Assembly: GCA_015060685.1 (NCBI GenBank) | Contig: SUXZ01000011.1 | Location: forward strand, 1 to 64,000 | DNA from: Mediterranea massiliensis | GTDB lineage: Bacteria; Bacteroidota; Bacteroidia; Bacteroidales; Bacteroidaceae | Length of the DNA stretch: 64,000 nucleotides | Direction of reading: 5' to 3' | Shown: positions 22,266-55,612 of the stretch, piece by piece | Layout: the number at the start of each line of letters is the position of its first letter | Numbering within the stretch: position 1 is the first letter of the stretch | Translations under genes and position numbers: made by a program | The notes under the pieces: model-generated | Seen by the model: only the letters and a program-made list of their open reading frames with translations | Told to the model about the DNA's origin: nothing | The model's database searches: none

Positions 22266-22331
22266 TTTTTCCCAACTGAGAAAAAATATCTTCCCTACTA
22301 GGAAAAAATATTTTCCCTACTGGGTAAATTT
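22266..22331. repeat. Palindromic array A: three units, exact 22-bp period
   Basis: Three imperfect palindromes of the form TTTTCCCwACTGGGAAAA have centres at 22275.5, 22297.5 and 22319.5. They lie between the end of the pectate lyase gene and the NifU-like promoter region. The rest of this gap (22088-22265) shows nothing recognisable. Confidence 0.85.
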
Positions 22332-22393
22332 TCGGCCATTATTCGGCCCTGTTCCCGTTTGCTGATAATAGTTTACAAATAGTCATCTTTTAG

Positions 22394-23536
22394 TTACGGC
22401 TCACTAAAGGATAATGTGGCGCCGGCATAGGCCGATACTACGGCTTCTACCTCGTCGGCATTGAGCGATGTGGGTAGGGAGTAGGTGGGTGTGAACGAGC
22501 TGCCTGTGCCGTTGGTAGAGGGCGTGCCGTTGGTGAACAGACAATCGTCGAAACGCAAGTTGCCATCGTCGTTGTGCGTCTTGTATGCCTTCTTGGGTCC
22601 GGAGAAGACGGTGCGGTCGACATAGATATCGGCTTCCTTGCCTACACCGATGCAAGCGCTGGGCGTTTGGGTGGAGTAGAGGCAATTGGCTATGTGAACC
22701 TTACCGAAGCGTACACGCGGCATGCGTTCGCGGCATCCCTCGTCCCACCAGCAATATTGGAAGGTGGTGTTCAGATGTTCTCTGTCGCCGGTTTGACTAT
22801 CGCTGCTTCCCCAAAGATTTGAGAAGCGGTGGTCGTCGCTACCGCCGCTTCCTCCGGATTGCGGCTCGATGAGGTAGCGGAAGCGGCACCAGGTTACGGC
22901 TACGTTGTCCGATGCATTCTTGCAATCGAAATTACCATCTACGCCATCCTGGAAATCGCAATGATCTACCCACACGTTGGTGGTGCCGTCTATGCAAAGA
23001 TTGTCTCGGCCATCCACATCGTAGGCACCGGCACTCTTGAAGGTTAGGTTGCGCAAGATAAGGTTGCTGGAACCTTTCTTGAAATACAGGATGCCCGATT
23101 GGCTTTGCGTGCGGTTGGGGTTGACAAGTGCCGAGCCTTTCAAGCCAAAAATGGTTTTGTCGGTTGAAAGCACTGAGATGACGTTGTTCACGGTAATTTC
23201 TCCCTTGATGTAGATGATGAGTGCATCCTCTTGTTTCAGTGCGTTTTGCAACTCGGTAGCCGTAGTCACAACAACGCTCTCTCCACCTTCGCCTCCGGTG
23301 ATTCCTTCACCGAAACCTACGGGTGCATTGGCATCGCATGCGGCCATGTCGTTGGAAGGCGGCTGGGGCGATGGGTCGGGAGTTGGCTCAGGCTCAGGCG
23401 TTGGTGTAGGCTTTGTTTCTTCTTGTTGCGGCTTGTCGGGCAGTTCGTCGATAGGGCTATCGCCTCCGCAAGCGCCGAAAACAAACATTAGTATAATAAC
23501 AAATAGTGGTTTGATGGTTAAATTCAAGTATTTCAT
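22394..23536 (-). CDS. Pectate lyase, polysaccharide lyase family 1
   Basis: 380 residues. Lipobox FGAC (Cys 23) then a Pro/Glu/Thr linker to about residue 62, as in surface-exposed Bacteroides enzymes. The parallel beta-helix domain shows the PL1 motifs: TNVWVDHCDFQDGVDGNFD (calcium site), the HHRFSNLWG-type loop (here DDHRFSNLWGSSD) and RERMPRVRFGKVHIANCLY, which holds the catalytic arginine. It should cleave polygalacturonan by beta-elimination at the cell surface. Divergent from the GH3 gene, each with a clear promoter. Confidence 0.93.
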   Translation of the reverse strand: MKYLNLTIKPLFVIILMFVFGACGGDSPIDELPDKPQQEETKPTPTPEPEPTPDPSPQPPSNDMAACDANAPVGFGEGITGGEGGESVVVTTATELQNALKQEDALIIYIKGEITVNNVISVLSTDKTIFGLKGSALVNPNRTQSQSGILYFKKGSSNLILRNLTFKSAGAYDVDGRDNLCIDGTTNVWVDHCDFQDGVDGNFDCKNASDNVAVTWCRFRYLIEPQSGGSGGSDDHRFSNLWGSSDSQTGDREHLNTTFQYCWWDEGCRERMPRVRFGKVHIANCLYSTQTPSACIGVGKEADIYVDRTVFSGPKKAYKTHNDDGNLRFDDCLFTNGTPSTNGTGSSFTPTYSLPTSLNADEVEAVVSAYAGATLSFSEP

Positions 23537-23566
23537 TTCTTGTTCAGCATTTGATAATCAATGGTG

Positions 23567-23597
23567 CAAAATTACTCTTTTCGCTTCGTTTATCAAA
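23567..23597 (-). promoter_or_regulatory. Promoter of the pectate lyase gene
   Basis: On the minus strand TTTG (23594-23597) and TAATTTTG (23567-23574) are separated by 19 bases, an exact match to the Bacteroidetes primary promoter. The ATG is 30 bases downstream. Confidence 0.75.
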
Positions 23598-23636
23598 GGC
23601 AATCGTTAATTATTTCTCGGATATTTCAGCAGGGTG

Positions 23637-23667
23637 TTGCAGAAGTACAAAACATTCCTTACATTTG
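23637..23667 (+). promoter_or_regulatory. Promoter of the GH3 gene
   Basis: TTG (23637-23639), a 20-base gap, then TACATTTG (23660-23667). The ATG is at 23707. Confidence 0.7.
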
Positions 23668-23706
23668 TGGCTAATTTGATTAACCGAAAAATTACATCTG
23701 ATTAGT

Positions 23707-26040
23707 ATGAAGTCTAAAACATTAATAATGAGTAGCATGATACTGATGGCCGGTTGTAGCCTTCCGAAGACCGACATCGAAAGCCAAGTGAACGAATTAT
23801 ACGATAAAATGCCTCAAGAAGAGCGCATTGCACAGTTGAAAAGTTGCTATATGGACGACTTCTTCGACGAAGCAGGCAACCTGGATACTTTGAAGTGCAA
23901 AGAGCTGATGCCCTATGGCATGGGACACTTTTCGCAATATGCCAGCCAGAAGACGATGGAAGCAAATGTGTTGCGCGATCGCGTAGCCGCCATGCAAGAG
24001 TGGCTGATGAATCACACTCCCAACGGCATACCGGCTTTGTTTCATGAAGAGGTGCTTTCGGGCATCAATACCCGTGGTGCAACCATCTATCCGCAACAAA
24101 TCGGTCAGGCATGTTCGTTCAATCCCGAACTGGCCGAGTTGAAAACGTTGCAAACCGGCATCGCCATGCGCAAGATGGGTGGCGTTTTGTCGCTATCGCC
24201 CATGGTGGATGTGTGTCGCATACCCAGTTTCAACCGCTTGGAAGAGTCGTATGGCGAAGATGCTTATCTGTCGGCCGTGATGGGTACTGCTTTTGTGAAG
24301 GGCTTGCAACAAGGCGACCTTAAGAAAGGCGTTGGCGCTTGCTCGAAGCACTACCTGGGCTATGGCGGTGGAGGCGATGCCGACGAAAAAGAGATGATGG
24401 AAGAGATTCTGATGCCTCACGAGGCAATGATTCGTTTGGCGGGAAGTAAGGTGCTGATGCCGGGCTATCATGCCGTGCATGGCACTAATTGTGTGGCCAA
24501 TAGCGAGATACTACAAGACATTCTTCGCGGCTATTTAGGTTTCGACGGCATGGTAGTGAGCGACTATACCGCCATCGACCAGTTGCCCGGTTATGAAACC
24601 ACTATGCAAAAGGCCGCCGCAGCTATCAACAACGGAAACGATGTGGATTTCCCCAAGGGAGAAAACTACCAATATCTGCAAGAGGCTATCGACCAGGGTC
24701 TGGTGAAGCCTGAAGTACTGGAAAGAGCCGTAAAGAACGTGTTGCGTCATAAATTCCGTGCAGGCTTGTTCGATGAGAATCCTTATTTATATAGCAACGA
24801 GCAGATTGTATTGGATACCCCGGAAGAACGTAAAACAGCCTACGAAATAGCTACTCAATCGGTGGTACTTTTAGAGAATAACGGCATCTTGCCGCTGAAG
24901 GATGTAAAGAATGTTTTGGTGACTGGCCCTAATGCCAACTCGATGTGGGCTATGTGTGGCGACTACTCCTTCCCATCTATGTCTTACTTCTGGAAGCATA
25001 ATACCGAAGATTTGGAGCATGCACCTATCGTGAAGTTGCTCGAAGGGATGAATGCACGCAAACCCGAAGGCGTGAACATCCTTTACTCACGCGGATGCGA
25101 TTGGACGGAAGAGATTGAAACCAAATATACCGAAACCGGCGACGAGCGTGCTTGGGAGTACACCCTGTTGCATCGCAAGGTGGATTCGGGCGAGGTGGCC
25201 GATAAGAAAGAGGCACTTGGCATGGCCAAGCAAAGCGATGTCATCATAGCCGCTATGGGCGAGAATGTGATGCTTTGCGGTGAAAACCGCGACCGCCAAG
25301 GGCTTCGTTTGCCGGGCAAGCAAGAACAGTATGTAGAAGAGTTGTTGGCAACAGGTAAGCCGGTTGTACTGATTCTGTTCGGTGGACGTGCGCAAGTTGT
25401 TGCGGGCATCGCCGAACGCTGTGCGGCGGTTATCCAAGCCTGGTATCCGGGCGAGGAGGGTGGTAATGCCGTAGCCGACATTCTTTACGGCAATGTTTCG
25501 CCTTCGGCAAAGCTATCTGTAAGCTATCCGAATACAGAGGTGTATGAACCGCTTTGCTACAACTACTCGGCCGAAAAGGATGCGCGCGTAGCATGGCCGT
25601 TCGGTTATGGTTTGAGTTATACAACTTTTGAATATGCCAACTTGTCGATGAACAATGAAGCAGCTACTACCGATAAAACCATTACACTTGCATTCGATGT
25701 GACAAACACCGGCTCGGTGAAAAGCGATGAGATTGCGCAGATTTATCTCTCGCCGGCCGATGGCAATACAAACATTCGTCCTATTCAATTACAAGGATTT
25801 GCCCGCGTGTCGCTTGCACCCGGCGAAACCAAGAGGGTGGAAGTGGCGATGCACGTCGAGCAATTCGGTTATTATAGCAATGAAGGACAACGCCAATGGA
25901 ACATCGCGCCGGGCGAATATACGCTTAAGGTGGGCGCATCGTCGCAAGACATCAAGTTGAGCGGAAACATCCGTTTGCAAGGCGAAAAGGTGGTAAAACC
26001 GCTTAGAGAGTATTATTTCTCGGAAAGTGTTGTGAAATAG
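23707..26040 (+). CDS. Glycoside hydrolase family 3, lipoprotein
   Basis: 777 residues. Lipobox MAGC (Cys 17). The N-terminal barrel (about 60-360) carries GATIYPQQIGQAC, LSLSPMVDVCRIPSFNRLEESYGED, KHYLGYG and FDGMVVSDYTAIDQLPG, whose Asp in SDY is the nucleophile. The alpha/beta sandwich (about 390-610) includes VVLLENNGILPLKDV and GENRDRQGLRLPGKQEQYVEEL. A fibronectin-III-like domain ends the protein (from about 660: LAFDVTNTGSVKSDEIAQIYLS). Sequence style is close to beta-xylosidase/beta-glucosidase members; the sugar is uncertain. Confidence 0.95.
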   Translation: MKSKTLIMSSMILMAGCSLPKTDIESQVNELYDKMPQEERIAQLKSCYMDDFFDEAGNLDTLKCKELMPYGMGHFSQYASQKTMEANVLRDRVAAMQEWLMNHTPNGIPALFHEEVLSGINTRGATIYPQQIGQACSFNPELAELKTLQTGIAMRKMGGVLSLSPMVDVCRIPSFNRLEESYGEDAYLSAVMGTAFVKGLQQGDLKKGVGACSKHYLGYGGGGDADEKEMMEEILMPHEAMIRLAGSKVLMPGYHAVHGTNCVANSEILQDILRGYLGFDGMVVSDYTAIDQLPGYETTMQKAAAAINNGNDVDFPKGENYQYLQEAIDQGLVKPEVLERAVKNVLRHKFRAGLFDENPYLYSNEQIVLDTPEERKTAYEIATQSVVLLENNGILPLKDVKNVLVTGPNANSMWAMCGDYSFPSMSYFWKHNTEDLEHAPIVKLLEGMNARKPEGVNILYSRGCDWTEEIETKYTETGDERAWEYTLLHRKVDSGEVADKKEALGMAKQSDVIIAAMGENVMLCGENRDRQGLRLPGKQEQYVEELLATGKPVVLILFGGRAQVVAGIAERCAAVIQAWYPGEEGGNAVADILYGNVSPSAKLSVSYPNTEVYEPLCYNYSAEKDARVAWPFGYGLSYTTFEYANLSMNNEAATTDKTITLAFDVTNTGSVKSDEIAQIYLSPADGNTNIRPIQLQGFARVSLAPGETKRVEVAMHVEQFGYYSNEGQRQWNIAPGEYTLKVGASSQDIKLSGNIRLQGEKVVKPLREYYFSESVVK

Positions 26041-26052
26041 AATGTTATTGAT

Positions 26053-26550
26053 ATGATAGAAGTGAGTGATGCGGCTTTGCGTCAAGCCGCCGGAGAGGGA
26101 ATGGATGCCTTTATCCAAGTATTTACCGATGCCTATAAGCAGGTGATTGGCGATGAATGGAATGCCGAAAAAATGGCGTTACTCAATGCCGAGCAACACA
26201 CTTTGCTGGCCTACCAGTTGTTTCGCGACGAGGTGATGGAAGGAGGCTTCTGCCAGCTTATCCAGAATGGTTATGGCGGATACATCTTTATGAATCCGTT
26301 TGCCAAGGCACTCCGTTTATGGGGTGTGGGCGAGCTGACCAAGATTATTTATAGTGCGAGGGAAATTTATGTGGCAAACAAGCAGGATTTGGAACGCGAA
26401 CGCACCGACGATGAGTTTATGGCCATGTACGAACAATACGAGGCTTTCGACGACCTGGAGGATAAGTTTTTAGAGAAAGAAGAGCAATTCACCGCCTTGG
26501 TTGCACAATATGTAGATGACCATTTGGCACAATTTGCTGCGATTATTTAA
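26053..26550 (+). CDS. DMP19 family protein (DUF4375)
   Basis: 165 residues. QHTLLAYQLFRDEVMEGGFCQLIQNGYGGYIF with FAKALRLWGVGELTKII is the DMP19-like core: a short helical domain with an N-G-Y/F-G-x-Y loop. The C-terminus is acidic. Cytoplasmic, function unknown; the name comes from a DNA-mimic protein of Neisseria, but most relatives are not shown to act so. It starts 12 bases after the GH3 gene, so it may be read through from it. Confidence 0.85.
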   Translation: MIEVSDAALRQAAGEGMDAFIQVFTDAYKQVIGDEWNAEKMALLNAEQHTLLAYQLFRDEVMEGGFCQLIQNGYGGYIFMNPFAKALRLWGVGELTKIIYSAREIYVANKQDLERERTDDEFMAMYEQYEAFDDLEDKFLEKEEQFTALVAQYVDDHLAQFAAII

Positions 26551-26612
26551 ACAACATTTATTAAAAACATTGAAAAAAGGGTTAATGTAGGCATAATATT
26601 GATTCTTTTGAC

Positions 26613-26620
26613 TATTTTTG
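26613..26620 (+). promoter_or_regulatory. -7 box of the 26649 lipoprotein gene
   Basis: TATTTTTG matches TAnnTTTG, 28 bases before the ATG. Confidence 0.55.
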
Positions 26621-26648
26621 CACCGCAAAATTTAAACATAATACAAGA

Positions 26649-27461
26649 ATGAAACATTTGAAATTAATGATGGCAGCCCTTGCCATAATGATGGGCTTAA
26701 CTATGACTTCTTGCTTGGGTGATGAAGAAGAAGTGGCACCGACTATTACTACTGTTGCAAAACTTAGATCAGCATTTCCTTGCGAGTTTGTTACCGACGA
26801 TGGTTTTGTAATTGTTCCCAGTTCATCTTCTGTAAGCAAATTCGAGGCAAACAATAGCATCTCATTGTCGAAATACTTGAACAATGTGTGCTACATCATT
26901 TATACTTTACCTGCCGGTAAAGAGATTAAAGAGGGAGATAAGGGCGTGGAAGATGTAACGCTCGAAGGCTTGGCTACGCTGAATTCGAAGGTTGAAAGAG
27001 TAAGCGAAAAGGGTGCGGTAAACGACTCGATCAACAAGGCCGCTATTATCTCGTTAGGTAAAGAGGGCAACGAATATCTGAAACCTGCCATGTTCGATGC
27101 TACAACCGTTTTCTTGTGCATCGATTATTTCTTGCTGAACAAGGGACACGACTTTACATTGGTGGATTATCTTAGCGAACAACCCGAAGATGAAGAAGGT
27201 GTGTTGACTTTCTATCTGCGTCATAACAACAACGACGACTCAATGATGAACACATCAACCACATCATATACATGGGCTAAGAACGGATATGTATGGTTCT
27301 TGTATCACGGCTTTGATATTACTGCTTCGATGATGGATTATCAAATGCAGAATGGAGGAAAGAAGCCTGAGGCTATAAAGATTGTGACCTACGAAAATGC
27401 AACAACTCCTTCATTGGAATCGGCTAAGCCAATGATGCACTACATCGAGTATAAGTATTAA
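26649..27461 (+). CDS. Putative lipoprotein of unknown function
   Basis: 270 residues. Lipobox MTSC (Cys 22) followed by an acidic stretch (LGDEEEV), the surface-export pattern of Bacteroidetes lipoproteins. The mature part seems to be a beta-rich domain, with ITTVAKLRSAFPCEFVTDD near the start and TYTWAKNGYVWFLYHGFDIT-like aromatic strands near the end (the first is TSYTWAKNGYVWFLYHGFDI). It resembles the many NigD/DUF4840-like lipoproteins but a family could not be fixed. It stands alone with its own promoter, 24 bases before the Yip1-like gene. Confidence 0.75.
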   Translation: MKHLKLMMAALAIMMGLTMTSCLGDEEEVAPTITTVAKLRSAFPCEFVTDDGFVIVPSSSSVSKFEANNSISLSKYLNNVCYIIYTLPAGKEIKEGDKGVEDVTLEGLATLNSKVERVSEKGAVNDSINKAAIISLGKEGNEYLKPAMFDATTVFLCIDYFLLNKGHDFTLVDYLSEQPEDEEGVLTFYLRHNNNDDSMMNTSTTSYTWAKNGYVWFLYHGFDITASMMDYQMQNGGKKPEAIKIVTYENATTPSLESAKPMMHYIEYKY

Positions 27462-27485
27462 TGTTAAAACATTCACTACGGTAAA

Positions 27486-28061
27486 TTGAATTACAAGGAA
27501 TTATTTCATATTGCCCTACAACTGATTTCCTCCCCGGCTACCGCTTGGGAGGAAATTCGTTTGGAAGAGGATAAGCGGAAAGTGTTCACTTCGTTCGTTT
27601 ATCCCATGATAGGCTTGTGTGGTTTATCCGTCTTCTTGGGCACTATCTTCAGCATGGGATGGAGCGGGCCGCAAAGTTTCCAAATGGCTATGACCAAGTG
27701 TTGTGCCGTGGCCGTATCGTTGTTTGGTGGATACTATTTGGCCGCTTACCTGCTGAACGAAGTCTCTATGCGTATGCTTGGACGCGATGACGACCACTTG
27801 CTGATGCAACAATTTGCCGGATATGCCATGGTAGTGCCTTTTGCACTACAAATCATTATCGGCCTGTTGCCCGATTTCAACATTGTGGCCATCTTGTTGC
27901 AATTCTATATCGCCGTACTTATTTGGGAAGGAAGTGAAAAACTGTTGCAAATAGAGGAAAAAGAACGTTTGCGCTTCACTATCTTCGCTACGGCATTGCT
28001 CATCGGATGCCCCGCAATTATACAATTTGTATTCAATAAGTTAACCGCTGTACTGAACTAA
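27486..28061 (+). CDS. Yip1-family membrane protein, TTG start
   Basis: 191 residues with about five membrane segments (around 40-65, 75-100, 110-135, 135-155, 165-190). LISSPATAWEEIRLEED at the N-terminus is typical of bacterial Yip1/DUF1282 proteins. The start is TTG at 27486: an in-frame TAA at 27465-27467 excludes any upstream ATG, and the next ATG is residue 40, inside the first membrane segment. Its stop directly abuts the ATG of smpB. Function unknown. Confidence 0.82.
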   Translation: MNYKELFHIALQLISSPATAWEEIRLEEDKRKVFTSFVYPMIGLCGLSVFLGTIFSMGWSGPQSFQMAMTKCCAVAVSLFGGYYLAAYLLNEVSMRMLGRDDDHLLMQQFAGYAMVVPFALQIIIGLLPDFNIVAILLQFYIAVLIWEGSEKLLQIEEKERLRFTIFATALLIGCPAIIQFVFNKLTAVLN

Positions 28062-28514
28062 ATGAAACAACCGGCAATAAATATCAAGAACAAACGTGCT
28101 ACCTTCGATTACGAACTAATCGATACCTACACGGCGGGCATTGTGCTGACGGGTACAGAGATTAAATCTATCCGATTGGGTAAGGCAAGCCTTGTAGATA
28201 CTTATTGCTATTTTGTTAACAACGAGTTGTGGGTGAAGAATATGCACATTGCCGAATACTTCTACGGCTCGTACAATAACCACACCGCCCGTCGCGAACG
28301 AAAACTGTTGCTGACTAAAAAAGAACTTGATAAACTGAAACGAGGTTCGCTCGATCCTGGTTTTACACTAATTCCCGTCAGGATGTTTATCAACGAAAAG
28401 GGATTGGCAAAGGTGGTAGTAGCGCTTGCAAAGGGTAAGAAGCAATTCGACAAGCGACAATCGCTGAAGGAAAAAGACGACAAACGCGACATGGCTCGTA
28501 TGTTCAAATACTAA
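28062..28514 (+). CDS. smpB: SsrA-binding protein SmpB
   Basis: 150 residues, normal length. [29 protein letters not shown] is the conserved N-terminal strand set, followed by [23 protein letters not shown] (tmRNA-binding) and a basic tail ending [11 protein letters not shown]. It carries tmRNA to stalled ribosomes for trans-translation. Directly abutted by the Yip1-like gene and followed after 14 bases by metH, so the three are probably co-transcribed. Confidence 0.97.
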
Positions 28515-28528
28515 CAAAACAACTGACA

Positions 28529-31270
28529 ATGAAGCTGAACGAGGAGGTGCGCAAACGCATCTTGATATTGGATGGTGCCATGGGCACCATGATTCAACAA
28601 TACAACTTGAAGGAAGAGGATTTTCGAGGCGAACGCTTCGCAAACCTTCCCGGACAGATGAAGGGAAACAACGATTTACTTTGTCTGACATGTCCCGATG
28701 TGGTGATGGATATTCACCGCAAATATCTTCAAGCCGGTGCCGATATTGTTGAAACCAATTCGTTCAACGCTACACGCATTAGTATGGCCGACTATCGTGT
28801 CGAGGAATACATTGCGGAAATAAACCTCGCGGCTGCTCGATTGGCGCGCGAAGTTGCCGATGAATTTACGGCGGTTACTCCCGAAAAACCGCGTTTCGTT
28901 GCCGGTTCGGTAGGCCCAACGAATAAAACTCTCTCATTAAGTCCCGACGTTAATAATCCTGCTTTGCGTAACATTACCTACGATGAATTGCTCAATGCCT
29001 ATGTTGAGCAGATGGAGGCATTGTTGCAAGGTGGGGTAGATGTGCTACTGATTGAGACTATTTTCGATACACTGAATGCGAAAGCTGCTATTCATGCCGC
29101 ACAATTGGCGATGGAAAAAGTTGGTAGAGAGGTGCCATTGATGCTTTCGGTCACCGTTTCGGATATTGCAGGGCGCACATTGTCTGGTCAAACGCTCGAT
29201 GCTTTTCTGGCATCGGTGCAACATGCTAAGTTGTTTTCAGTCGGTTTGAATTGCTCGTTTGGTGCGCGTCAGATGAAACCATTCTTGCGCCAACTTGCCG
29301 AGCGCGCACCTTATTATATATCTGTTTATCCCAATGCTGGTTTACCCAATAACTTAGGGCAATACGACCAATCGCCCGAAGAAATGGCGGCGGAAGTGCG
29401 CGAATACATCGAAGAGGGATTGGTGAATATTGTAGGCGGTTGTTGTGGCACTACGCACGAATATATAGCTCAGTTCGGTGCATTGATAGAAGGTGCGCAA
29501 CCGCATGTACCGGTAAGTGAATCGCCCAATATGTGGTTATCGGGTTTGGAATTGCTCGAAATGCGCCCAGAGATTAACTTCTTGAATGTGGGCGAACGAT
29601 GCAACGTAGCAGGCTCGCGCAAATTCTTGCGATTGATAAACGAAAAAAACTATGACGAGGCGTTAAGCATTGCTCGCAAGCAAGTGGAAGATGGCGCGTT
29701 AGTAATAGATATCAATATGGACGACGGCTTGCTGGATGCAGAAAAGGAGATGACTACCTTCTTGAATTTGCTTGCTTCCGAGCCGGAAATAGCTAAGGTG
29801 CCTGTGATGATTGACTCGTCCAATTGGCGTGTTATCGAAGCAGGCTTGAAATGTGTACAAGGAAAACCGATTGTAAACTCTATTTCGTTGAAGGAAGGCG
29901 AGGAAATTTTCACGCAACGTGCTTCGTGCATCCGCGCAATGGGTGCGGCGGTTGTGGTGATGGCGTTCGATGAAAATGGGCAAGCCGATACGTATGAACG
30001 CAAAATTGCGGTGTGCGAACGAGCCTATCGTTTGCTTACCGAAAAGGTGGGTTTCCGTGCATGCGACATTATCTTTGACCCCAATGTGTTGGCTATTGCT
30101 ACGGGCATGGAAGAGCATAATAACTATGCGCTGGATTTTATTCGTGCGACAAAGTGGATAAAGCAAAACCTGCCGGGTGCACACGTTAGCGGTGGAGTAA
30201 GTAATCTCTCTTTCTCTTTCCGCGGCAATAACTATATTCGTGAGGCGATGCATGCCGTATTCTTGTATCATGCTATTGAGGCTGGTATGGATATGGGTAT
30301 TGTAAATCCTTCTACATCTGTGTTGTATAGCGATATTCCTACCGATTTATTGGTGTTGTTGGAAGATGTGGTGTTGAATCGTCGCCCCGACGCAACCGAG
30401 CGATTGATAGAAGCGGCAACAACCTATAAACAACAAGCCACTAATAGTGCGCAAGCCGATACATCTTCAGTAAATGCATGGCGCAACGAATCGCTGAACG
30501 AACGTTTGCAACAAGCATTGATTAAGGGTGTTGCCGATTATTTGCAAGCTGATTTGACGGAGGCGTTGCAACAATACGAACGTGCGGTAGATATTATCGA
30601 AGGCCCGTTGATGGCCGGCATGAATAGGGTAGGCGAATTGTTTGGCGCGGGTAAGATGTTTTTGCCGCAAGTGGTGAAGACGGCTCGCACTATGAAACAA
30701 GCGGTAGCTATTCTTCAGCCTACTATTGAAGCACAAAAGCTGAGCGCAACAACTTCATCGGGAAAGGTACTTCTTGCTACGGTTAAGGGCGATGTGCATG
30801 ATATAGGTAAAAACATCGTGTCGGTGGTAATGGCTTGCAACGGCTATGAAATAATCGACTTGGGCGTAATGGTGCCGCCAGAAACAATTGTGCAATGCGC
30901 TATCGAAGAAAAGGTGGATATGATTGGGCTTAGCGGTTTGATTACACCTTCGCTCGAAGAGATGGTGAATGTAGCCAAAGCATTGCAAATGGCGGGGCAA
31001 GAGATTCCGTTGCTGATTGGCGGCGCAACAACCTCTTTGCTACATACGGCTTTGAAGATTGCACCTGTGTATCAAGCGCCGGTTGTACATATGAAGGACG
31101 CTTCGCAAAATGCCGGTGTAGCAGCTCGCTTAATGAATGCTACTCAACGCAAAGAGTTGGTAGCTGAATTGAATGCAACATACGAACGCTTGCGCAACGA
31201 ACATGCTGTGCAACAAACGGAGATTTTGTCGTTTGAAGAAGCCAACAAACGAAAGCCCAATTTCTTCTAA
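28529..31270 (+). CDS. metH: Cobalamin-dependent methionine synthase lacking the activation domain
   Basis: 913 residues against about 1230 in E. coli. Homocysteine domain: [10 protein letters not shown] at the start, and [15 protein letters not shown] with the zinc cysteines near 310. Folate domain from about 345 ([18 protein letters not shown]). B12 cap and Rossmann domain from about 650 to 880, with [11 protein letters not shown] holding the cobalt-ligating His. It ends with [12 protein letters not shown], so the SAM-dependent reactivation domain is absent. Transfers methyl from methyltetrahydrofolate to homocysteine. No cobalamin riboswitch was found before it. Confidence 0.95.
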
Positions 31271-34490: not shown

Positions 34491-34556
34491 ATTTTCCCTA
34501 CTGAGAAAAAATATTTTCCTAGTAGGGAAAATTATTTTTCCCAACTGGGAAAATTT
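34491..34556. repeat. Palindromic array B: three units, exact 22-bp period
   Basis: Centres at 34500.5, 34522.5 and 34544.5. Units are TTTTCCCTACTGAGAAAA, TTTTCCTAGTAGGGAAAA (inverted form) and TTTTCCCAACTGGGAAAA. The word is that of array A, 12 kb away. The rest of the gap (34422-34695) shows no gene. Confidence 0.87.
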
Positions 34557-34695: not shown

Positions 34696-34720
34696 TACTA
34701 CTATGTATTGCATAGTACTA
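34696..34720 (+). promoter_or_regulatory. Probable PadR operator
   Basis: ACTATG (34700-34705), a 5-base spacer and CATAGT (34711-34716) form a perfect dyad, extending almost perfectly to ten bases per arm. It lies over the -33 region of the padR promoter, where a repressor would block initiation. Confidence 0.6.
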
Positions 34721-34764: not shown

Positions 34765-35100
34765 ATGGACGTAAACAATGTAAAGTCGCAAATGCGCAAG
34801 GGGATGCTTGAATATTGCATTTTGTTGCTGCTACACAAACAACCGGCCTATGCTTCGGACATCATCCTGAAACTGAAAGAGGCCAAGCTGATTGTAGTGG
34901 AAGGCACTCTCTATCCGCTGCTTACCCGTTTGAAGAACGATGCTCTTCTTAGCTATGAGTGGGTAGAATCTACTCAAGGGCCCCCACGCAAATACTATAA
35001 ACTGACCGCCACCGGCGAACAGTTTTTAGGTGAACTGGAAGCCTCGTGGTGCGAATTGAGCAATACCGTCGAACACTTAAAAGCCATACAAGTTGAATAG
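34765..35100 (+). CDS. PadR family transcriptional regulator
   Basis: 111 residues, the short PadR type. Winged helix: RKGMLEYCILLLLHKQPAYASDIILKL, then VVEGTLYPLLTRLKNDALLSYEWVES, the wing GPPRKYYKLTATGEQFL, and a C-terminal dimer helix. Likely represses its own operon through the dyad at 34696-34720. The neighbouring PspC-domain membrane protein, 26 bases on, is its probable co-regulated partner; PadR-PspC pairs are common and are linked with envelope stress. Confidence 0.92.
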   Translation: MDVNNVKSQMRKGMLEYCILLLLHKQPAYASDIILKLKEAKLIVVEGTLYPLLTRLKNDALLSYEWVESTQGPPRKYYKLTATGEQFLGELEASWCELSNTVEHLKAIQVE

Positions 35101-45252: not shown

Positions 45253-45298
45253 TCCGTATATTTTAGATAGTTTTCAAGGCTGTTTGTGCCTTGGATTT

Positions 45299-45375
45299 AC
45301 ATTAAACCTTTTTGTTCATTAGGTTAAACCTTTTGGGCAAAAAGGTTTAACCTTTTCATGCTTTAGGTTTAACCT
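45299..45375. repeat. Palindromic array C: four units, exact 22-bp period
   Basis: Units of AGGTTTAACCT form, centres at 45304 (degenerate), 45326, 45348 and 45370. The array lies between the convergent fcl and FadL-type genes. Confidence 0.88.
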
Positions 45376-45409
45376 TTTTAGAGAGCATGAATAGGGGAAT
45401 AAAAAAGAA

Positions 45410-48122: not shown

Positions 48123-48151
48123 TGCATGAATCCATAAAAGCAAAAGCGAAA

Positions 48152-48751: not shown

Positions 48752-48753
48752 CC

Positions 48754-48876: not shown

Positions 48877-48878
48877 AG

Positions 48879-50525
48879 ATGATGTGCAACAAGGAAAACC
48901 GTTTTCATCCCTATCAGGCAGACATCAGCCAGGTGGAGTTGCCCGCACGTTTTACCTATCCTTTTTGCTATAAGCCCCATCCGCTCTGTGTGTTGGCCGC
49001 CGAAGAGGTGAAGGAGTATCTTTCCAAACAGACTCAATGGCACGATGAGTTGGCTATGGGTAAGATGTTTGGTGTGTTGGTGGTGGAAAACGAGCAAAAG
49101 CAAGTTGGTTTCCTTGCCGCCTTTTCCGGCATATTGGCAGGCGATAATAATCATCCCTATTTTGTACCTCCCGTTTATGATTTGTTGCATCCCGACGGCT
49201 TTTTCAAACCGGAAGAAGAGGCTATATCCAACATAAACCGGCAGATTAAGCATCTTGAAAACCATCCTCAATATCTGTTGGCGCTGAATAACTTACGCCA
49301 ATTGTCAGAGGAGTGTAAACATAGCTTGACGCAAGAACGATTGAAACTAAAACAGGCCAAAGCTTTGAGGGATGAGCGTCGGCAGAAAGGCAATCTCTCC
49401 GTAGAAGAAGAGGCTGCATTAATCAAAGAAAGCCAATTCCAGAAAGCCGAATTCAAACGTATCGAAAAGGCTTGGAATCAGCGGATGAGCCAATCGCAAC
49501 AGGCCTACGATACCTATAAACATGCCATCGATGAACTGAAACAAGAGCGGCGAATGCGCTCTTCTGCCCTTCAAAAGCGCCTATTCGAGCAGTTCGTTAT
49601 GCTGAATTATCATGGAGAAGAGCAGAACTTGTGTGATATATTTGCCGATACCGTCCAACTGGTTCCGCCGGCAGGAGCCGGTGAGTGTGCCGCCCCCAAG
49701 CTGCTTCAATATGCCTACAAGCAAGGTTGGAAACCATTGGCTATGGCCGAGTTCTGGTGGGGCAATTCGCCTAAATCGGAAATCCGTCATCACGGACAAT
49801 ACTATCCCTCGTGCAAAGGCAAGTGCGAACCTATCTTGAAACACATGCTCAAGGGATTGGATGTTGAGCCCAATCCGATGATAGCGCAACAACAACAATC
49901 CTCCGGTAGCTTGGATGTGGTTTACGAGGATGAGTGGATAGCCGTTGTCAACAAGCCGGCCAATCTCTTGTCTGTTCCGGCAAAAGATGAAGGCGAATCG
50001 GTTTACGCACTTGCTAAAAAGCAATTCCCGCAGGCCGATGGCCCGTTGATAGTACATCGCTTGGATTTTGCCACTTCGGGCATATTGGTGATTACCAAGA
50101 CCAAAGAAGCGCATAAACATTTACAAGATCAGTTTGCCAATCGGACAATCGAAAAGCGATACGTCGCCTTGCTTAAAGGAAGGGTAGCGAAAGAGAGTGG
50201 CGTCATCGATTTGCCATTATCGCTAAACCGGCTCGATCGTCCGCATCAGATGGTTGATTACGAACAAGGCAAGCAAGCCATCACTCGCTATCAAGTATTG
50301 GAGTCTTCGGAAGATACAACCCGCATCGCCTTCTATCCACTTACCGGCCGCACCCATCAGTTGCGCGTACATGCCGCCCATCCCGACGGATTGCATTGTC
50401 CCATCATAGGCGATGACCTCTACGGCACACCCTCCACCCGCCTTTTCCTCCATGCCGAGTACATCCGTTTCTGTCATCCTATGACCAACGAAACTATTTC
50501 CTTTACCATTCCTGCCCCATTTTAA
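48879..50525 (+). CDS. RluA-family pseudouridine synthase with long N-terminal extension
   Basis: 548 residues; start ATG 48879 (or 48882) behind AGGAGG at 48862-48867. The C-terminal 210 residues are the RluA domain: VNKPANLLSVPAKDEG, GPLIVHRLDFATSGILVITKT with the catalytic Asp in HRLD, EKRYVALLKG and TGRTHQLRVHAAHPDG. The first 335 residues hold a Glu/Gln/Arg coiled coil (about 110-215) and a segment with Cys and His (VPPAGAGECAAPKLLQYAYK, YYPSCKGKCEPILKHML). The RNA site is unknown; the extension is seen in a subset of related synthases. Confidence 0.9.
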   Translation: MMCNKENRFHPYQADISQVELPARFTYPFCYKPHPLCVLAAEEVKEYLSKQTQWHDELAMGKMFGVLVVENEQKQVGFLAAFSGILAGDNNHPYFVPPVYDLLHPDGFFKPEEEAISNINRQIKHLENHPQYLLALNNLRQLSEECKHSLTQERLKLKQAKALRDERRQKGNLSVEEEAALIKESQFQKAEFKRIEKAWNQRMSQSQQAYDTYKHAIDELKQERRMRSSALQKRLFEQFVMLNYHGEEQNLCDIFADTVQLVPPAGAGECAAPKLLQYAYKQGWKPLAMAEFWWGNSPKSEIRHHGQYYPSCKGKCEPILKHMLKGLDVEPNPMIAQQQQSSGSLDVVYEDEWIAVVNKPANLLSVPAKDEGESVYALAKKQFPQADGPLIVHRLDFATSGILVITKTKEAHKHLQDQFANRTIEKRYVALLKGRVAKESGVIDLPLSLNRLDRPHQMVDYEQGKQAITRYQVLESSEDTTRIAFYPLTGRTHQLRVHAAHPDGLHCPIIGDDLYGTPSTRLFLHAEYIRFCHPMTNETISFTIPAPF

Positions 50526-50667
50526 AGTATATTTCAATAAAGAAACACCCTTTTTGTCCCCGTCAGGAGCGATTATTACTCAATTCTCGAACAAATTTCT
50601 TTCCCTTCCAATGGAAAATCTTTTCTTCTGCTGAGAAGAAATCATGAACCTACTACATAAAATTAAA

Positions 50668-50743
50668 ATACCGCCTGTATTTTATAAAATATCGTCGGTA
50701 TTTTATAAAATATCAGCGGTATTCTAATAAATACCGTCGGTAT
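50668..50743. repeat. Palindromic array D: four units, exact 21-bp period
   Basis: Units of ATACCGTCGGTAT form, centres at 50674, 50695, 50716 and 50737, separated by TTTATAAA-like palindromes. It lies in the convergent gap between the RluA-family gene and rseP. The rest of the gap (50526-50667, 50744-50966) shows no gene. Confidence 0.87.
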
Positions 50744-50966
50744 TTTAATTATTCTTAATCGAAAACCACTTTTATTGCTTCCTCCCTCCTTTTTTTTCCT
50801 AACAATCCCTAAGAAAATCCTTCGCAAATTCAATATGATTCCCGCACGGATAGAACCCTATTTTGGTGACACGGCATGATGTGTCCGCATATTCACAATC
50901 AGTTATATATAGAGATAGGCTCAGTATTGACTAAGCTACTTTCATCGTTCAACGAAACATAAAAAA

Positions 50967-50995
50967 AGCCTCCGCACTAAAGAAGTACGGAGGCT
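50967..50995 (-). terminator. Terminator of the leftward rseP operon
   Basis: AGCCTCCG and CGGAGGCT arms with three further pairs around a 5-base loop, followed on the minus strand by a run of seven U. Confidence 0.88.
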
Positions 50996-51017
50996 ATATT
51001 TATAGATTATTCTCTTA

Positions 51018-52337
51018 TTAAAACATGCGGAGGATGTCGTTCAAGTTTGCCCAAATGAGGAGGGTGAGGAGTAGTAACATACCAATCATTTGTGCACGCT
51101 CCATGAACTTGTCGCTTGGTTTGCGACGGGCAATGATTTCGTAGAGTAGGAAGAGTACATGTCCGCCATCGAGGGCCGGGATGGGAAGGATGTTCATGAA
51201 GGCAAGGATGATGCTCAAGAATGCCGTCATGTACCAGAATTGATGCCAATCCCAAGTAGAAGGGAAGATGCTACCGATGGCACCAAAGCCACCCAATTGC
51301 TTGGCTCCCTCTTTAGAAAAGAGGTATTTCATTTGGCCTACATAGCCTTTCAAGGTATTAACGCCCAATGCAATACCAGCAGGGAAAGCTTCGAAGAAAC
51401 CATACTCTTTGCGGATGGTTGGCATGACATCGGGATTGACCATTACGCCTATCCGATAGGTTGAATCGGTCATCAAGGTAAGTGTATCGGTCTGATTACG
51501 ACGAATGTATGTCAATTGAATTTCGTGTGGGCCATTTGATTCACGACGTTTGTACATCTCGGAAAGGAATTCGTTGTAGTCGATTGCTTTGCCATCGAGA
51601 TGAGTGATGCGGTCGCCTGCTTGCAATCCGGCATGGAAGGCGGGTGTGTTAGTTACGACACTATCAATAACGTATGGCACACGGAAGGATGCAAAACGTA
51701 CACTATCGGCCATGAGGCGTTGCATCATGTCTTCGGGAATATATACCGATGCTTCTACACCATCTCTCATTACGGTTACCTGACGGGCATCTACCACGGC
51801 CGTTAGCAGGTCGGTATTCATGCGCTCGAAAGGCACGCCATCGGCAGAAATCAGTACGTCGCCATCCTTGAAACCGATTGATTTGGCCGTTTCGTTGAAC
51901 GACATACCAAGAGGTGCTTGCTGAACGGGAATGTATTCGTCGCCCCAAGTAAAGAGAATCATCGAGTAGATGAATAGGGCAAGCAGGAAGTTGAACAACA
52001 CACCACCAATCATGATGAACAAACGTTGCCAAGCCGGCTTTGCACGGAATTCCCACGGTTGCACGGGATGATCCAATTCGTCGGCACTTTGTGTTTCGTC
52101 CACCATACCATCTATTTGTACGTATCCACCTAAGGGTAACCAACCGATGGCATATTCGGTTTCGCTTTTCTTTGGTTTGAACTTGAAAAGTGTAAACCAA
52201 GGATCGAAGAAAAGGCAGAATTTATTGACTCTTGTTTTGAACAGACGGGCAAATAAGAAGTGTCCTCCCTCGTGGATAAGCACCAGCAACGAGAGGCTCA
52301 TGATGAGTTGAATAGCTTTAATAAAGAATGTCTCCAT
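51018..52337 (-). CDS. rseP: RseP-family intramembrane metalloprotease
   Basis: 439 residues. LVLIHEGGHFLFARLF near residue 20 is the HExxH zinc site in the first membrane helix; a PDZ domain lies at about 125-290 (GFKDGDVLISADG; GLQAGDRITHLDGKAI, so perhaps two); NILPIPALDGGHVLFLLYE is the L-D-G motif. Cleaves membrane-bound substrates such as anti-sigma factors. Forty-four bases after dxr; the gap carries a short repeat of GAATTATGA. Confidence 0.95.
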   Translation of the reverse strand: METFFIKAIQLIMSLSLLVLIHEGGHFLFARLFKTRVNKFCLFFDPWFTLFKFKPKKSETEYAIGWLPLGGYVQIDGMVDETQSADELDHPVQPWEFRAKPAWQRLFIMIGGVLFNFLLALFIYSMILFTWGDEYIPVQQAPLGMSFNETAKSIGFKDGDVLISADGVPFERMNTDLLTAVVDARQVTVMRDGVEASVYIPEDMMQRLMADSVRFASFRVPYVIDSVVTNTPAFHAGLQAGDRITHLDGKAIDYNEFLSEMYKRRESNGPHEIQLTYIRRNQTDTLTLMTDSTYRIGVMVNPDVMPTIRKEYGFFEAFPAGIALGVNTLKGYVGQMKYLFSKEGAKQLGGFGAIGSIFPSTWDWHQFWYMTAFLSIILAFMNILPIPALDGGHVLFLLYEIIARRKPSDKFMERAQMIGMLLLLTLLIWANLNDILRMF

Positions 52338-52381
52338 CTATTTTAATTATGAATTATGAATTGTGAATTATGAATTGCGGG

Positions 52382-53530
52382 TTATATTAGTTCGTTGGCC
52401 ATGATGCGCGTCAGCTTATCGGTGGCTACATAATCTTCGTAGGTTGGCTTTTCGATGAAAGAAACCTGTTGCATACATTTCTCTATCACATCGCTCATGC
52501 CAAGGAAGGAGATGCGGTCGTTCAAGAAGGCCGATACAACCACTTCGTTGGCGGCATTGATGATGCAAGGCATGTTTCCGCCTTGATGCAAGGCTTCGTA
52601 GGCTAATGCCAAATTGCGGAAGCGCTTGGTGTCGGGTTGCTCGAAGGTGAGTTGCGTGCAAGTCTTGAAATCCAATCGTGGGAATGATGCACACAAGCGG
52701 TCGGGATAGGAGAATGCATACTGGATGGGCAGACGCATATCGGGTAAACCGAGTTGTGCCTTGATTGAACTGTCTTCGAATTGCACCATGGAGTGTATGA
52801 TGCTTTGCGGATGCACCACTACCTCTATCTGCTCGGGTTGCACACCGAAGAGCCATTTGGCCTCGATTACTTCGAAACCTTTGTTCATCATGGAAGCCGA
52901 ATCGATGGTAATCTTGGCACCCATATCCCAGTTGGGATGTTTCAAGGCTTGCGCTTTGGTTACGGTGGCCAGTTGCTCGAGCGAATAGGTGCGGAAAGGG
53001 CCTCCCGATGCTGTTAATATCACTTTGTCGATAGGGTTGCCTATCTCTCCGGCCAGGCATTGGAAGACGGCCGAGTGTTCGGAATCGACGGGTAGGATAG
53101 GAGTGCCGTATTGTTGTGCCAATTCGTTTACCAATTCACCGGCTACGACAAGCGTCTCTTTGTTGGCCAAGGCGATGGCTTTGCGTGCCCGGATGGCGTT
53201 CATTGTCGGCTTTAGTCCGGCATAGCCCACCATTGCCGTCAGCACCATGTCGATGTTGTCGTCGGTAACTATCTGGCACAATGCCTCTTCTCCGCCATAT
53301 ACCTTGATGGGAAGGTCGGCAAGTGCCTCTTTCAGTTGATTATACTTGGCATCGTTGGCAATGACTACGGCTTCGGGCTTGAACTTCCGGGCTTGTTCAA
53401 TCAACTCATCCACGCGGTTGTTGGCCGTCAGCACATAGGCTTCGTAGAGGTCGGAATGCTCTTCGATAACTTGAAGGGCTTGTGTGCCTATCGAGCCTGT
53501 TGATCCAAGTATGGCTATTTTTTTCTTCAT
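52382..53530 (-). CDS. dxr: 1-Deoxy-D-xylulose-5-phosphate reductoisomerase
   Basis: 382 residues from the ATG at 53530, beginning MKKKIAILGSTGSIGTQAL; the extra 19 codons of the longer frame overlap the M23 gene. NADPH loop GSTGSIG, ALANKETLVVAGELV, LPVDSEHSAVFQCL (metal Asp/Glu) and TASGGPFRTYSLEQLA, MGAKITIDSASMMNKGFEVIEA are all present. Second step of the MEP isoprenoid pathway. Confidence 0.97.
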   Translation of the reverse strand: MKKKIAILGSTGSIGTQALQVIEEHSDLYEAYVLTANNRVDELIEQARKFKPEAVVIANDAKYNQLKEALADLPIKVYGGEEALCQIVTDDNIDMVLTAMVGYAGLKPTMNAIRARKAIALANKETLVVAGELVNELAQQYGTPILPVDSEHSAVFQCLAGEIGNPIDKVILTASGGPFRTYSLEQLATVTKAQALKHPNWDMGAKITIDSASMMNKGFEVIEAKWLFGVQPEQIEVVVHPQSIIHSMVQFEDSSIKAQLGLPDMRLPIQYAFSYPDRLCASFPRLDFKTCTQLTFEQPDTKRFRNLALAYEALHQGGNMPCIINAANEVVVSAFLNDRISFLGMSDVIEKCMQQVSFIEKPTYEDYVATDKLTRIMANELI

Positions 53531-53538
53531 ATTTCGGT

Positions 53539-54399
53539 TTAAAATGCAATTAATGTTTCGGGGTTTACGGCCTTTCCTTTCCTCCAAAGTTCGAAGTGCA
53601 GGTGCGGGCTGTGTGCTAATGTGCCGCTACTACCGGCCAATGCGATTGCCTCTCCGGCTTTAACCGTTTCGCCTTGTTGTTTCAGTAGCAGGCTACAATG
53701 TTTGTACACCGATAGCAAGTCTTGATTGTGTTGTATCATGATGACATAGCCCGTGTCGGCGGTATAGGTGCTCATGATAACCGTGCCGTCGAGTGTAGCC
53801 ACAACGCTTTCGCCATTTTGTGCGGCTATGTCTATGCCAAGGTGTTTCTTTTCGGTATCGAATTTGTTGGTAATGATACCTTGTGTGGGGCGATGGAAAA
53901 GTACTCCCGCCACTTCCGAGCGTTGTCCTATCGAGCTCAGGTTGTACTTCTCGCGCTCTTCATATTCTCTTCTGAAGGCAATTTCGCGTTCGCTACGGTC
54001 GATGAGCGAATCTTGTCGGATGCTGGTGAGTGAATCAATGGATTGTATGGTATCTGCTTTGATGTTTCCGGCAAAGATGTCCTGGATGTTCATGATGTAT
54101 AGGTTTTGCCTGTTGGCCACCTCGATGAGCGAATCTACCTTCAGTGCATTGTTCACCACTTGTGTTCTGATTTCGCTATTCATATATCCGGGCAGGAAGT
54201 TGCGCAGAGGGGTGTAGGCAATCATGATTGATGCCAATGCAAAGATTGTGATGAGGATGATGGCTATTAGCAGGATGCCATTCAGCTTGGTGAATTGCAT
54301 GCTTCCCACCTCTTCCAACGAGTTTTCGTCGGTCAGGGTAAGCTTGTACTTGAACTTGATGTTTTCCCAAAAAGCAATTTGTTGTTTCTTCTTTGCCAT
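53539..54399 (-). CDS. M23 family peptidoglycan endopeptidase
   Basis: 286 residues. One membrane helix near residue 35 (ILLIAIILITIFALASIMIA) anchors it; a helical stalk follows. The LytM domain is complete: KKHLGIDIAAQNGESVVA (metal His and Asp), VIMIQHNQDLLSVYKHC and HSPHLHFELW (catalytic and metal His). Cleaves peptidoglycan cross-links or activates amidases. Twelve bases after rimM and eight before dxr. Confidence 0.93.
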   Translation of the reverse strand: MAKKKQQIAFWENIKFKYKLTLTDENSLEEVGSMQFTKLNGILLIAIILITIFALASIMIAYTPLRNFLPGYMNSEIRTQVVNNALKVDSLIEVANRQNLYIMNIQDIFAGNIKADTIQSIDSLTSIRQDSLIDRSEREIAFRREYEEREKYNLSSIGQRSEVAGVLFHRPTQGIITNKFDTEKKHLGIDIAAQNGESVVATLDGTVIMSTYTADTGYVIMIQHNQDLLSVYKHCSLLLKQQGETVKAGEAIALAGSSGTLAHSPHLHFELWRKGKAVNPETLIAF

Positions 54400-54410
54400 A
54401 TATTCTGTTG

Positions 54411-54926
54411 TTAATCAAGTAGTCCTTCGGGTAGTTGCATCACGATGCGTCGTTCGTCGGGCAGGATGTCCACGACAAACTCCTCGCAAGCGGGCACCAG
54501 CAGCTCGTCTCCTTCGCGGTCGATGACGAAGAGCGTGTTCAAGGTTGTATCATCGATGTCGGTAATCTCTCCGAGCTTTCCGTGCTGAATGTCTTCTGCC
54601 TGGAAGCCTACGAAGAAACTCCAACTGTATTGTCCGTCGCTTGCCTGTTGTGCGGCATCGATGGGGAAATATACCTCGATGTTGGTGAACATGCGCGCCT
54701 TTTCGGCATCGTCAACATCTTCAAGTTTAATCAGTGCGCTATTCTCCGAACGGAAGCGGTACTCTTCGATGAAGAAGGGCACAAGTATGCCGTCCATCAG
54801 GCAGATGATGTATTCGGCCTCGGTGCGGTCGAATATATCGTCGCTGAAGGTGAATTGCAACTCGCCGTGTATGCCATGCGGCTTGTTTAGCACACCTATC
54901 TTATATACTTCATCTTTTCGTATCAA
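54411..54926 (-). CDS. rimM: 16S rRNA processing protein RimM
   Basis: 171 residues. RimM N-domain ([20 protein letters not shown]) and PRC-barrel ([55 protein letters not shown]), ending in the family's typical LPEGL. Binds S19 in 30S assembly. Overlaps the DUF4290 gene by 17 bases. Confidence 0.95.
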
Positions 54927-55557
54927 AGCGTTTACGGTTGTTTTTGTTATTGCCCATCTTGGCTTTTCCGTTGTTCTTGTTGTTGCCGCCAGTTCTTCTC
55001 ATGGCTTCGTCCATCCGTTTCTGCATCAGTTGCAATCTTTCGGGTGTCAGGACGAGCTTGCCTTGAGACAGCTCGTAGAGGTCGTCTACGATTTTCTGTT
55101 CTTCCACCACATCCTTGTTCCAGGTAGTGTATGCTTTCCGCATGTGGTTTCCAATCAGTGCAATCATGTTGTCTTTCTCCACGCCCTCTTCAAAATCGCA
55201 TGCGGCATTGATCAGCATCTCCACCGTGCGTCCGTAGTGGCGGTATTTGATGTTGGAGTTGGGATAGCTCACAAGTTCCGGACGGCTGTCCAAGTGGTCT
55301 TGCGGCACGATTTCGTAGGGATATTCAATGTCGAGCTTGAAGTCGGACATGATAGCCAGATGATCCCAAAGCTTATGGTTGAAGTCTGTTACATCCCGAA
55401 GTTGCGGATTCATGTTTCCCATGATGGAGATGATGGTGTTTGCGCATCGTTGACGCTCTTGTGGGTCTTCGATGGTAATGGCATAATCCACCATGTTCTG
55501 AATGCTGCGTCCGTATTCGGGCAACTTCATCTTTTTCCGTTGAGTGTTATATTGCAT
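54910..55557 (-). CDS. DUF4290 domain protein
   Basis: 215 residues. [39 protein letters not shown] and [17 protein letters not shown] are conserved in DUF4290, a Bacteroidetes-specific helical family found beside rimM. The C-terminus is an Arg/Lys/Asn-rich tail ([18 protein letters not shown]), which suggests RNA or ribosome contact. Function unknown. Confidence 0.92.
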
Positions 55558-55573
55558 CCTTAATCTATTTTTT

Positions 55574-55612
55574 ATTTTCCCTTAAGGGTAAATTTATTTT
55601 TCCTTAAGGGTA
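55574..55612. repeat. Palindromic array E: two units, 22-bp spacing
   Basis: TTTTCCCTTAAGGGTAAA and TTTTTCCTTAAGGGTAA, centres at 55583.5 and 55605.5. In the 72-base gap between the tsaB stop and the DUF4290 start on the minus strand. Confidence 0.8.

Follow-up and report, generated by a model that had tools for sequence, protein, structure and literature searches.

The window analysed here is a stretch of 64,000 nucleotides from Mediterranea massiliensis (assembly GCA_015060685.1, contig SUXZ01000011.1, positions 1 to 64,000 of the forward strand), and its intergenic gaps contain arrays of short palindromes, rows in which neighbouring centres lie about two helical turns of DNA apart. These arrays belong to dispersed, mostly intergenic repeat families, in every member of which at least two dyads follow one another at a pitch of 21-23 bp. 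An earlier note on this DNA had reported five of them, and all five are present, their centres being 22 bp apart except in one array, where the distance is 21 bp. They were read directly from the sequence, with centres computed by script, and genes were called by a longest-open-reading-frame rule. The five arrays, and a sixth row, are as follows.

Array 1: 22267..22328, unstranded, three TTTTCCC-NNNN-GGGAAAA units, 22 bp apart
Array 2: 34492..34553, unstranded, three TTTTCCC-family units at a pitch of 22 bp, the middle unit inverted
Array 3: 45296..45380, unstranded, four AGGTTTAACCT units at a pitch of 22 bp
Array 4: 50664..50747, unstranded, four ATACCGTCGGTAT units at a pitch of 21 bp
Array 5: 55575..55614, unstranded, two CCCTTAAGGG units with TTTTCCC/GGGAAAA-type arms, at a pitch of 22 bp
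Sixth array: 11675..11738, unstranded, about three CTGAAC-type units (consensus CTGAACTATTTGTTGTTCAGC) with a period of 22 bp, weakly palindromic

The claim that each array has a different word holds for Arrays 3 and 4, which have words of their own. The arms TTTTCCC/GGGAAAA are common to Arrays 1, 2 and 5, whose units differ at the four bases in the centre; both centre types of these units occur together in single arrays at L039 13175 and L122 10352. Array 1 is neighboured by minus-strand genes at 21319-22275 (without a Pfam match) and 22394-23536 (Pectate_lyase_4), and a three-unit row of the same kind is found at L036 16016. Array 2 lies upstream of a PadR-type regulator gene (34765-35100), and the same three-unit composite recurs at L024 8475 amid unrelated flanks. 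The gap that holds Array 3 (centres at about 45304, 45326, 45348 and 45370) is flanked by convergent genes for an Epimerase and an outer-membrane beta-barrel; Array 4 (centres at 50674, 50695, 50716 and 50737) occupies a convergent gap 3' of rseP (51018-52337), and Array 5 a convergent gap of 66 bp. Both four-unit arrays are copied whole elsewhere, Array 3 at L132 7140 (94% identity over 83 bp) and L138 6349-6429 (86%, 81 bp), and Array 4 at L124 983-1078 (94%, 96 bp, inverted) and L139 7940-8034 (84%, 95 bp). Rows similar to the sixth array, also at 22 bp, were found at L024 385, L028 11367, L030 15151 and L032 9224.

One spacing and many dispersed words

Spacing was compared with controls in two samples, one of 205 gaps (464 kb) from the window's own genome and one, the 80-locus set, of 796 intergenic gaps at one locus from each of 80 Bacteroides-like genome records found with an RseP query. 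A direct-repeat scan of the own genome placed 43 of the 205 gaps over threshold, against none in three gap shuffles and 4 of 350 coding pieces, and 22 of the 43 had periods of 22 bp (13 gaps), 44 bp (6) or 21 bp (3). Palindrome pairs occurred in 64 of the same 205 gaps, compared with 24.0 after shuffling; pairs at 21, 22, 23 and 44 bp were present in 5, 9, 7 and 6 gaps, against 0.2, 1.2, 0.2 and 0.2. The 80-locus set gave pairs in 202 of 796 gaps (53.6 shuffled), and coding pieces gave 29 in 1297, one of them at 22 bp. The best pair of alike palindromes stood at exactly 22 bp in 47 gaps against 0.6 in shuffled sequence, a count that includes orthologous sites of related species, whereas the tally of word families given below counts each family once. 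Other best-pair spacings were 44 bp (10 gaps, 1.2 shuffled), 42 bp (9, 0.8) and 14 bp (15, 1.6).

Adjacent centres in the 80-locus set were separated by 21 bp in 18 cases, by 22 bp in 115 and by 23 bp in 42, against totals of 13 for 15-20 bp and 19 for 24-30 bp. The spacings are thus not spread evenly over 15-30 bp, and the period is not equally frequent in shuffled sequence, the two outcomes that the earlier note had named as contrary to its proposal. A separate peak at 14 bp (62 adjacent spacings) probably reflects microsatellites with a 7-bp unit, such as occur in the window's genome. Microsatellites with units of 8 bp (ACTAACTC type) or 7 bp (CTAATCA type) lie in intergenic DNA at 2717-2787 of the window and at L029 3286, L036 7818, L038 9996 and other loci, and they are a separate phenomenon from the 22-bp rows.

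The 142 rows of at least three units at any pitch cluster into 95 word families (single linkage at 14 matching bases). The modal spacing was 22 bp in 41 families, 23 bp in 9 and 21 bp in 8, and any other value was modal in 1-4, so that 58 of the 95 families have a pitch of 21-23 bp, as do 25 of the 29 most palindromic ones. The geometry is common to many words while the sequence is not, and a shared two-turn geometry with changing sequence, as originally proposed, is borne out. Short palindromes in AT-rich gaps might in principle come to be alike in spacing by chance, and there is an off-peak background: two shuffles of each scanned gap set yielded 47 rows of at least three units at pitches of 12-60 bp, two of them at 22-23 bp, and some AT-rich, weakly palindromic rows are probably of this kind. 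Against this stand the 47 gaps at 22 bp, the 41 families at exactly that value and the excess of the word TTTTCCCTTAAGGGAAAA described below, and the shuffled gaps and coding controls rule chance out as an explanation with a probability close to nil.

To describe taxonomic breadth, rows of at least three units at a nominal pitch of 20-22 bp were counted, with a tolerance of one base per step. They were present in 36 of 390 gaps of the own genome, 44 of 796 in the 80-locus set, 9 of 195 in stretches sampled from five further members of the genus and 4 of 174 in stretches of fourteen genomes from the family's other genera. Outside the family there were none in 64 gaps from other families of the order, one in 113 from other families of the class, none in 31 from other classes of the phylum and none in 46 from Escherichia coli. 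The restriction to the family is provisional because the outside samples are small and some of the class and phylum loci were obtained through TTTTCCC-like hits.

The description of one word per array also hides dispersed families. In the own genome TTTTCCCTTAAGGGAAAA has 70 sites at up to three mismatches, some of which belong to the CCCWACTGGG class, compared with 3 for the reversed word, and 43 sites at up to two mismatches compared with none. The word TTTTCCCWACTGGGAAAA has 16 + 11 matches on the two strands at up to two mismatches, compared with 1 + 0. Among the remaining genomes searched, both words are at about control level (0-4 matches); the exception is G155, the sister genome from which L041 comes, with 50 sites against 1. 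Over 45 own-genome loci of the TTTTCCC family, at 37 of which there is more than one unit, adjacent spacings are 22 bp in 46 cases, 23 bp in 3 and 20 bp in 1; its rows stop at the palindrome edges and the flanks vary from locus to locus. Single units of the AGGTTTAACCT and ATACCGTCGGTAT words were not above control (7 vs 9 and 3 vs 3 loci at up to three mismatches), and the dispersal of these two words is seen in their whole-array matches at 84-94% identity.

A further family was found in another genome of the genus, G003, where a 76-bp element with four TTGTACAA palindromes occupies roughly 40 loci (81 rows, counting both strands, with 40 of the 88 first-look candidates scored). Its cores are spaced 22, 22 and 22 bp in all 30 copies read, in which 2 of 122 'units' were stray GTAC words in the flanks, and the element as a whole is an inverted repeat. 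Fourteen of the 30 copies lie outside a larger shared repeat, and among these 14 there are four in which one flank matches that of a single other copy. The larger repeat, itself dispersed and intergenic, surrounds the remaining sixteen copies (L249-L262, L265 and L271) and also holds other palindromes. The words are clade-limited dispersed families, and several have been copied as whole arrays to unrelated sites.

Within rows, neighbouring palindromes are on average 0.80 identical and neighbouring spacers 0.57, and spacers of different rows 0.26. At least 80% identity was seen in 46 of 185 spacer pairs, which indicates that some rows are recent tandem expansions, and less than 40% in 60 of 185, rows in which palindrome and length are still kept and the spacer has retained nothing else. 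Neighbouring units at 20-24 bp are in the same direction in 119 of 179 pairs of the 80-locus set and are inverted copies in the other 60, as in 19 of 38 own pairs. These figures bear on the suggestion that a copying process with a 22-bp step, such as slippage or template switching, made the arrays with no reader involved. The repeated spacers are as expected after recent tandem duplication, and the inverted neighbours also speak for it, so that such a step may explain recent arrays. It does not account for the older ones, in which spacers have diverged further than palindromes, nor for mapped arrays that two species, about 83% identical, have in common and in which indels are few, nor for the four units in 30 of 30 G003 copies, and as a general cause we consider it improbable.

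Two side observations concern other palindromes in the window. A 19-bp palindrome, TACTATGTATTGCATAGTA, at 34699-34717 just upstream of the PadR-type gene is perhaps that gene's own operator. Two ACCCGAAAGGGA-type palindromes at 13148-13211 are 41 bp apart, and at L160 5863, in a genome from another family of the order (G014), six TTGCCCAAGCTGGGCAA-like units follow one another at 41 bp as well; here the geometry is perhaps repeated with four turns in place of two.

Conservation in the sister species

Twelve of the 37 own TTTTCCC rows with at least two units could be mapped by both flanks within the sequence available from the sister species, which is about 83% identical. All 12 are recognisable there, including Array 5, which is present at the orthologous place with one of its two units degenerate. 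Mean identity was 0.936 in the rows and 0.793 in their 60-bp flanks, and rows were higher in 10 of the 12. Mapping in the reverse direction, which involves largely the same pairs, aligned 12 of 20 rows, and 11 were retained. Substitutions numbered 24/377 in arms, 4/108 in centres and 4/60 in spacers, compared with 165/1346 in flanks (Fisher p = 0.001 for arms, a result favoured by the way arrays were selected, and 0.003 for centres plus spacers, which were not used to find arrays). Indel openings numbered 1/546 in rows and 20/1440 in flanks (p = 0.014). A looser mapping by one flank covered 10 regions and found six rows clearly kept; a lone unit in a coding region was not conserved.

The other words gave fewer comparisons. 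For 25 of 29 own rows of such words the available sequence contained no orthologous counterpart; of the other four, two were retained and two lay in rearranged gaps; the AGGTTTAACCT row at L138 6350 is kept in the sister with its spacing intact. Counter to this conservation, the gap downstream of rseP has different word families in the two sister species. Rows of 22-bp palindromes are also present in the rseP-downstream gap at L042, L044, L051, L054-L057, L060, L063, L075, L076, L091 and L099; in the majority of other species this convergent gap contains a plain hairpin terminator. Where it can be compared, the geometry is conserved.

Candidate readers and movers

The most economical cause of the arrays is a row of dimer sites on one DNA face. 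We propose tentatively, with a probability of roughly 0.45, that the arrays are rows of dimer sites for DNA-binding proteins which sit on one face of the DNA, and that the rows have been carried by once-mobile repeats. A sequence-specific DNA-binding protein would occupy each palindrome as a dimer, and because neighbouring palindromes are two helical turns apart, successive dimers would come to lie on one face, in contact and binding cooperatively. The readers of different words would be distinct proteins, or fast-changing ones, with a common geometry. The rows would spread, or would once have spread, as whole elements to unrelated sites, many then being kept by selection. The protein dimers, their contact and their role are the parts of this scheme that we infer. 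For the TTTTCCC family, which is not clearly biased towards either end of genes, a role in chromosome organisation or silencing seems likeliest.

An alternative is that the palindromes act as RNA hairpins, either terminators or 3' stabilisers, that pair within units or between neighbours. All words pooled are enriched in convergent gaps, a preference that suits terminators or harmless insertions; RNA folds are stable in five of the six arrays tested; and the arrays 3' of rseP occupy the place of the plain hairpin terminator of other species. The pattern of substitution is of another kind. In 71 own TTTTCCC row units changes in the seven arm pairs were one-sided in 117 cases, two-sided in 3 and compensatory in 2, and arm positions did not pair above column shuffles. 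The G003 element likewise showed no pairing above shuffles within units, between neighbours or across the whole element, and a single high pair in that test traces to two stray flank words. Independently varying half-sites are the pattern expected of protein-dimer sites, and a hairpin as the selected structure, in RNA or DNA, was rejected on the lack of covariation in arm, neighbour and whole-element pairs, with two central TTTTCCC pairs as the exception. The TTTTCCC loci are distributed over 16 co-directional, 11 divergent and 9 convergent gaps among the 45, roughly tracking the bases available in each type. The loci in divergent gaps count against hairpins, and this placement and the pooled preference indicate that words may differ in role. 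The window has no Rfam match at gathering cut-offs, so that a known RNA family was also rejected, and the hairpin explanation, which leaves the fixed pitch unexplained, is very unlikely. A protein reading one DNA face, one of two causes that the earlier note had offered, fits better than a hairpin because arm pairs do not covary and because array sites and spacing are kept in the sister.

A second alternative is that the arrays are selfish mobile palindromes, non-autonomous repeats like those of the repetitive extragenic palindromic (REP) or miniature inverted-repeat transposable element (MITE) type, whose 22-bp pitch is needed by the mover's own complex with no gain to the host. The recurrence of whole arrays amid unrelated flanks, the presence of a single 76-bp element at roughly 40 sites in G003, the difference in families between two sister species in the rseP gap and the confinement of words to close relatives are all in keeping with this. 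The transposase search gave no support: Y1_Tnp (PF01797), the sole transposase family searched, had no matches in the own genome (G000) or in six other genomes of the genus, although 21 of the 61 family genomes sampled have one, and an origin from REP-associated tyrosine transposases (RAYTs) was rejected on the lack of a match in the genome. No target duplication was seen by eye at the edges of the 14 G003 copies outside the larger repeat, and neither a clean empty site nor a target duplication was found at the mapped sister loci, few loci being mappable. Mapped arrays are also better conserved than their flanks.

Two-unit TTTTCCC rows occur in frame within two genes, at L317 1013-1052 (mnmA) and L322 995-1034 (a DUF4922/SpoIID gene), and both are kept in the sister. 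Alignment with 23 and 33 of 120 listed homologues showed a net gain of five residues in the MnmA region and, in the DUF4922/SpoIID region, the same length as in most distant homologues, which speaks against clean 40-bp insertions. Taken together, we regard selfish palindromes as a possible but rather unlikely sole cause. Similarly doubtful is a class of element in Bacteroides chromosomes defined by its geometry, in which dyad rows every two turns are read by one oligomerising protein (or recombinase) family, the word changing with the clade while the pitch stays fixed.

Several points weigh against protein-read rows as the cause. No binding protein has been identified; the candidate class looked for was a Noc-like ParB paralogue, and ParB_N has one match each in the own genome and the sister, so that a Noc-like reader was rejected. 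It would be unusual for several proteins to have one common pitch. Two central TTTTCCC pairs were above shuffles (43 vs 36.6 ± 3.2 and 36 vs 24.1 ± 3.6), and 41 sister units gave the same result both for the arms and for the central trend; we read this excess as two centre classes, TTAA and WACT, which is no proof against pairing. The RNA folds are more stable than shuffles in five of six arrays (z -3.4 to -8.7, with -1.05 for the 22.3-kb array), as rows of palindromes must be. All words pooled favour convergent gaps, with 20/134 against 5/151 divergent in the 80-locus set. Finally, just 12 of 37 arrays were mappable on both flanks, and the one-flank mapping missed L021 9263 in the sister and left two regions unaligned, to which is added the selection effect on arm conservation given above.

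Repeat families are usually named by their words, whereas the conserved common property here is the spacing, and searches by word would miss the class. The results suggest that the spacing of the arrays is itself recognised, along with their sequence. If a protein family does read the rows, that family would be a hitherto unnoticed factor in the organisation, regulation or colonisation of Bacteroides chromosomes.

Comparison with known systems

REPs, bacterial interspersed mosaic elements (BIMEs) and REPINs are, like the arrays, short palindromes in many intergenic copies, and BIMEs are described as regularly spaced REPs of alternating orientation (PMC2817692, PMC3733652). The regular spacing is matched in the arrays and the orientation of units is mixed: of 38 own pairs 19 have both units in the same direction, as have 119 of the 179 from the 80 genomes. 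The arrays differ from the REP/RAYT system in having no Y1_Tnp match in the own genome and many unrelated words at one two-turn pitch. Judged by eye, the REP tags GTAG and CGTC are absent from most words, including the five of the window, and a few GTAGGGACGC palindromes elsewhere carry one. Such GTAGGGACGC..GCGTCCC palindromes, which resemble GTAG-tagged REPs, were seen at L040 1682, L030 15249 and L026 13070, in a genome without a Y1 match. MITEs are likewise short, AT-rich, non-coding and dispersed, and the G003 element is, like them, an inverted repeat overall; the arrays differ by their internal rows of 22-bp dyads, and no target duplication was found, nor a match to Y1, the transposase family searched.

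BrickBuilt of Porphyromonas gingivalis, from the same order, is described as a minisatellite MITE with tandem 23-nt units and dispersed intergenic copies, made of spacer-free direct repeats with a leader, a tail and terminal inverted repeats, and the string 'palindrom' has no matches in the text of that source (PMC4596501). The arrays here are palindromes with variable spacers and many words. Compared by description, the 23-nt brick with leader and tail is absent, since the pitch in the window is 22 or 21 bp, the rows are bounded by palindromes and the flanks differ. The same source mentions tandem direct repeats of 41, 23 and 22 nt in P. gingivalis W83 (PMC4596501), in keeping with a habit that extends more widely in the order. 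Prokaryote satellites are tandem repeats too, and a survey of them required at least four repeats of 10-200 nt; 'bacteroid' has no matches in its main text, and no 22-bp palindrome class was met in the parts covered (PMC6749651). Searches of an open-licence literature library yielded no description of such arrays in Bacteroides. In a CRISPR (clustered regularly interspaced short palindromic repeat) array, repeats alternate with unrelated spacers of similar length and cas genes lie nearby; the 22-bp pitch here leaves spacers of a few bases only.

Sites for Noc and SlmA are likewise tens of dispersed palindromes without a clear tie to gene direction, and the Noc half-site ATTTCCC resembles TTTTCCC. 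Neither is known to be arranged in 22-bp rows, and with one ParB_N match each in the own genome and the sister there is no Noc-like paralogue. The geometry also resembles that of phased operator rows and iterons, such as the lambda operators and plasmid iterons, where protein sites lie about two helical turns apart and the proteins face one way. Half-sites there also vary independently and the pitch is in whole helical turns, the same phased dyad geometry as found here. An operator or iteron row is a single site of regulation or replication, and each protein has one word, whereas the arrays described here occupy dozens of loci per genome and are written in many words.

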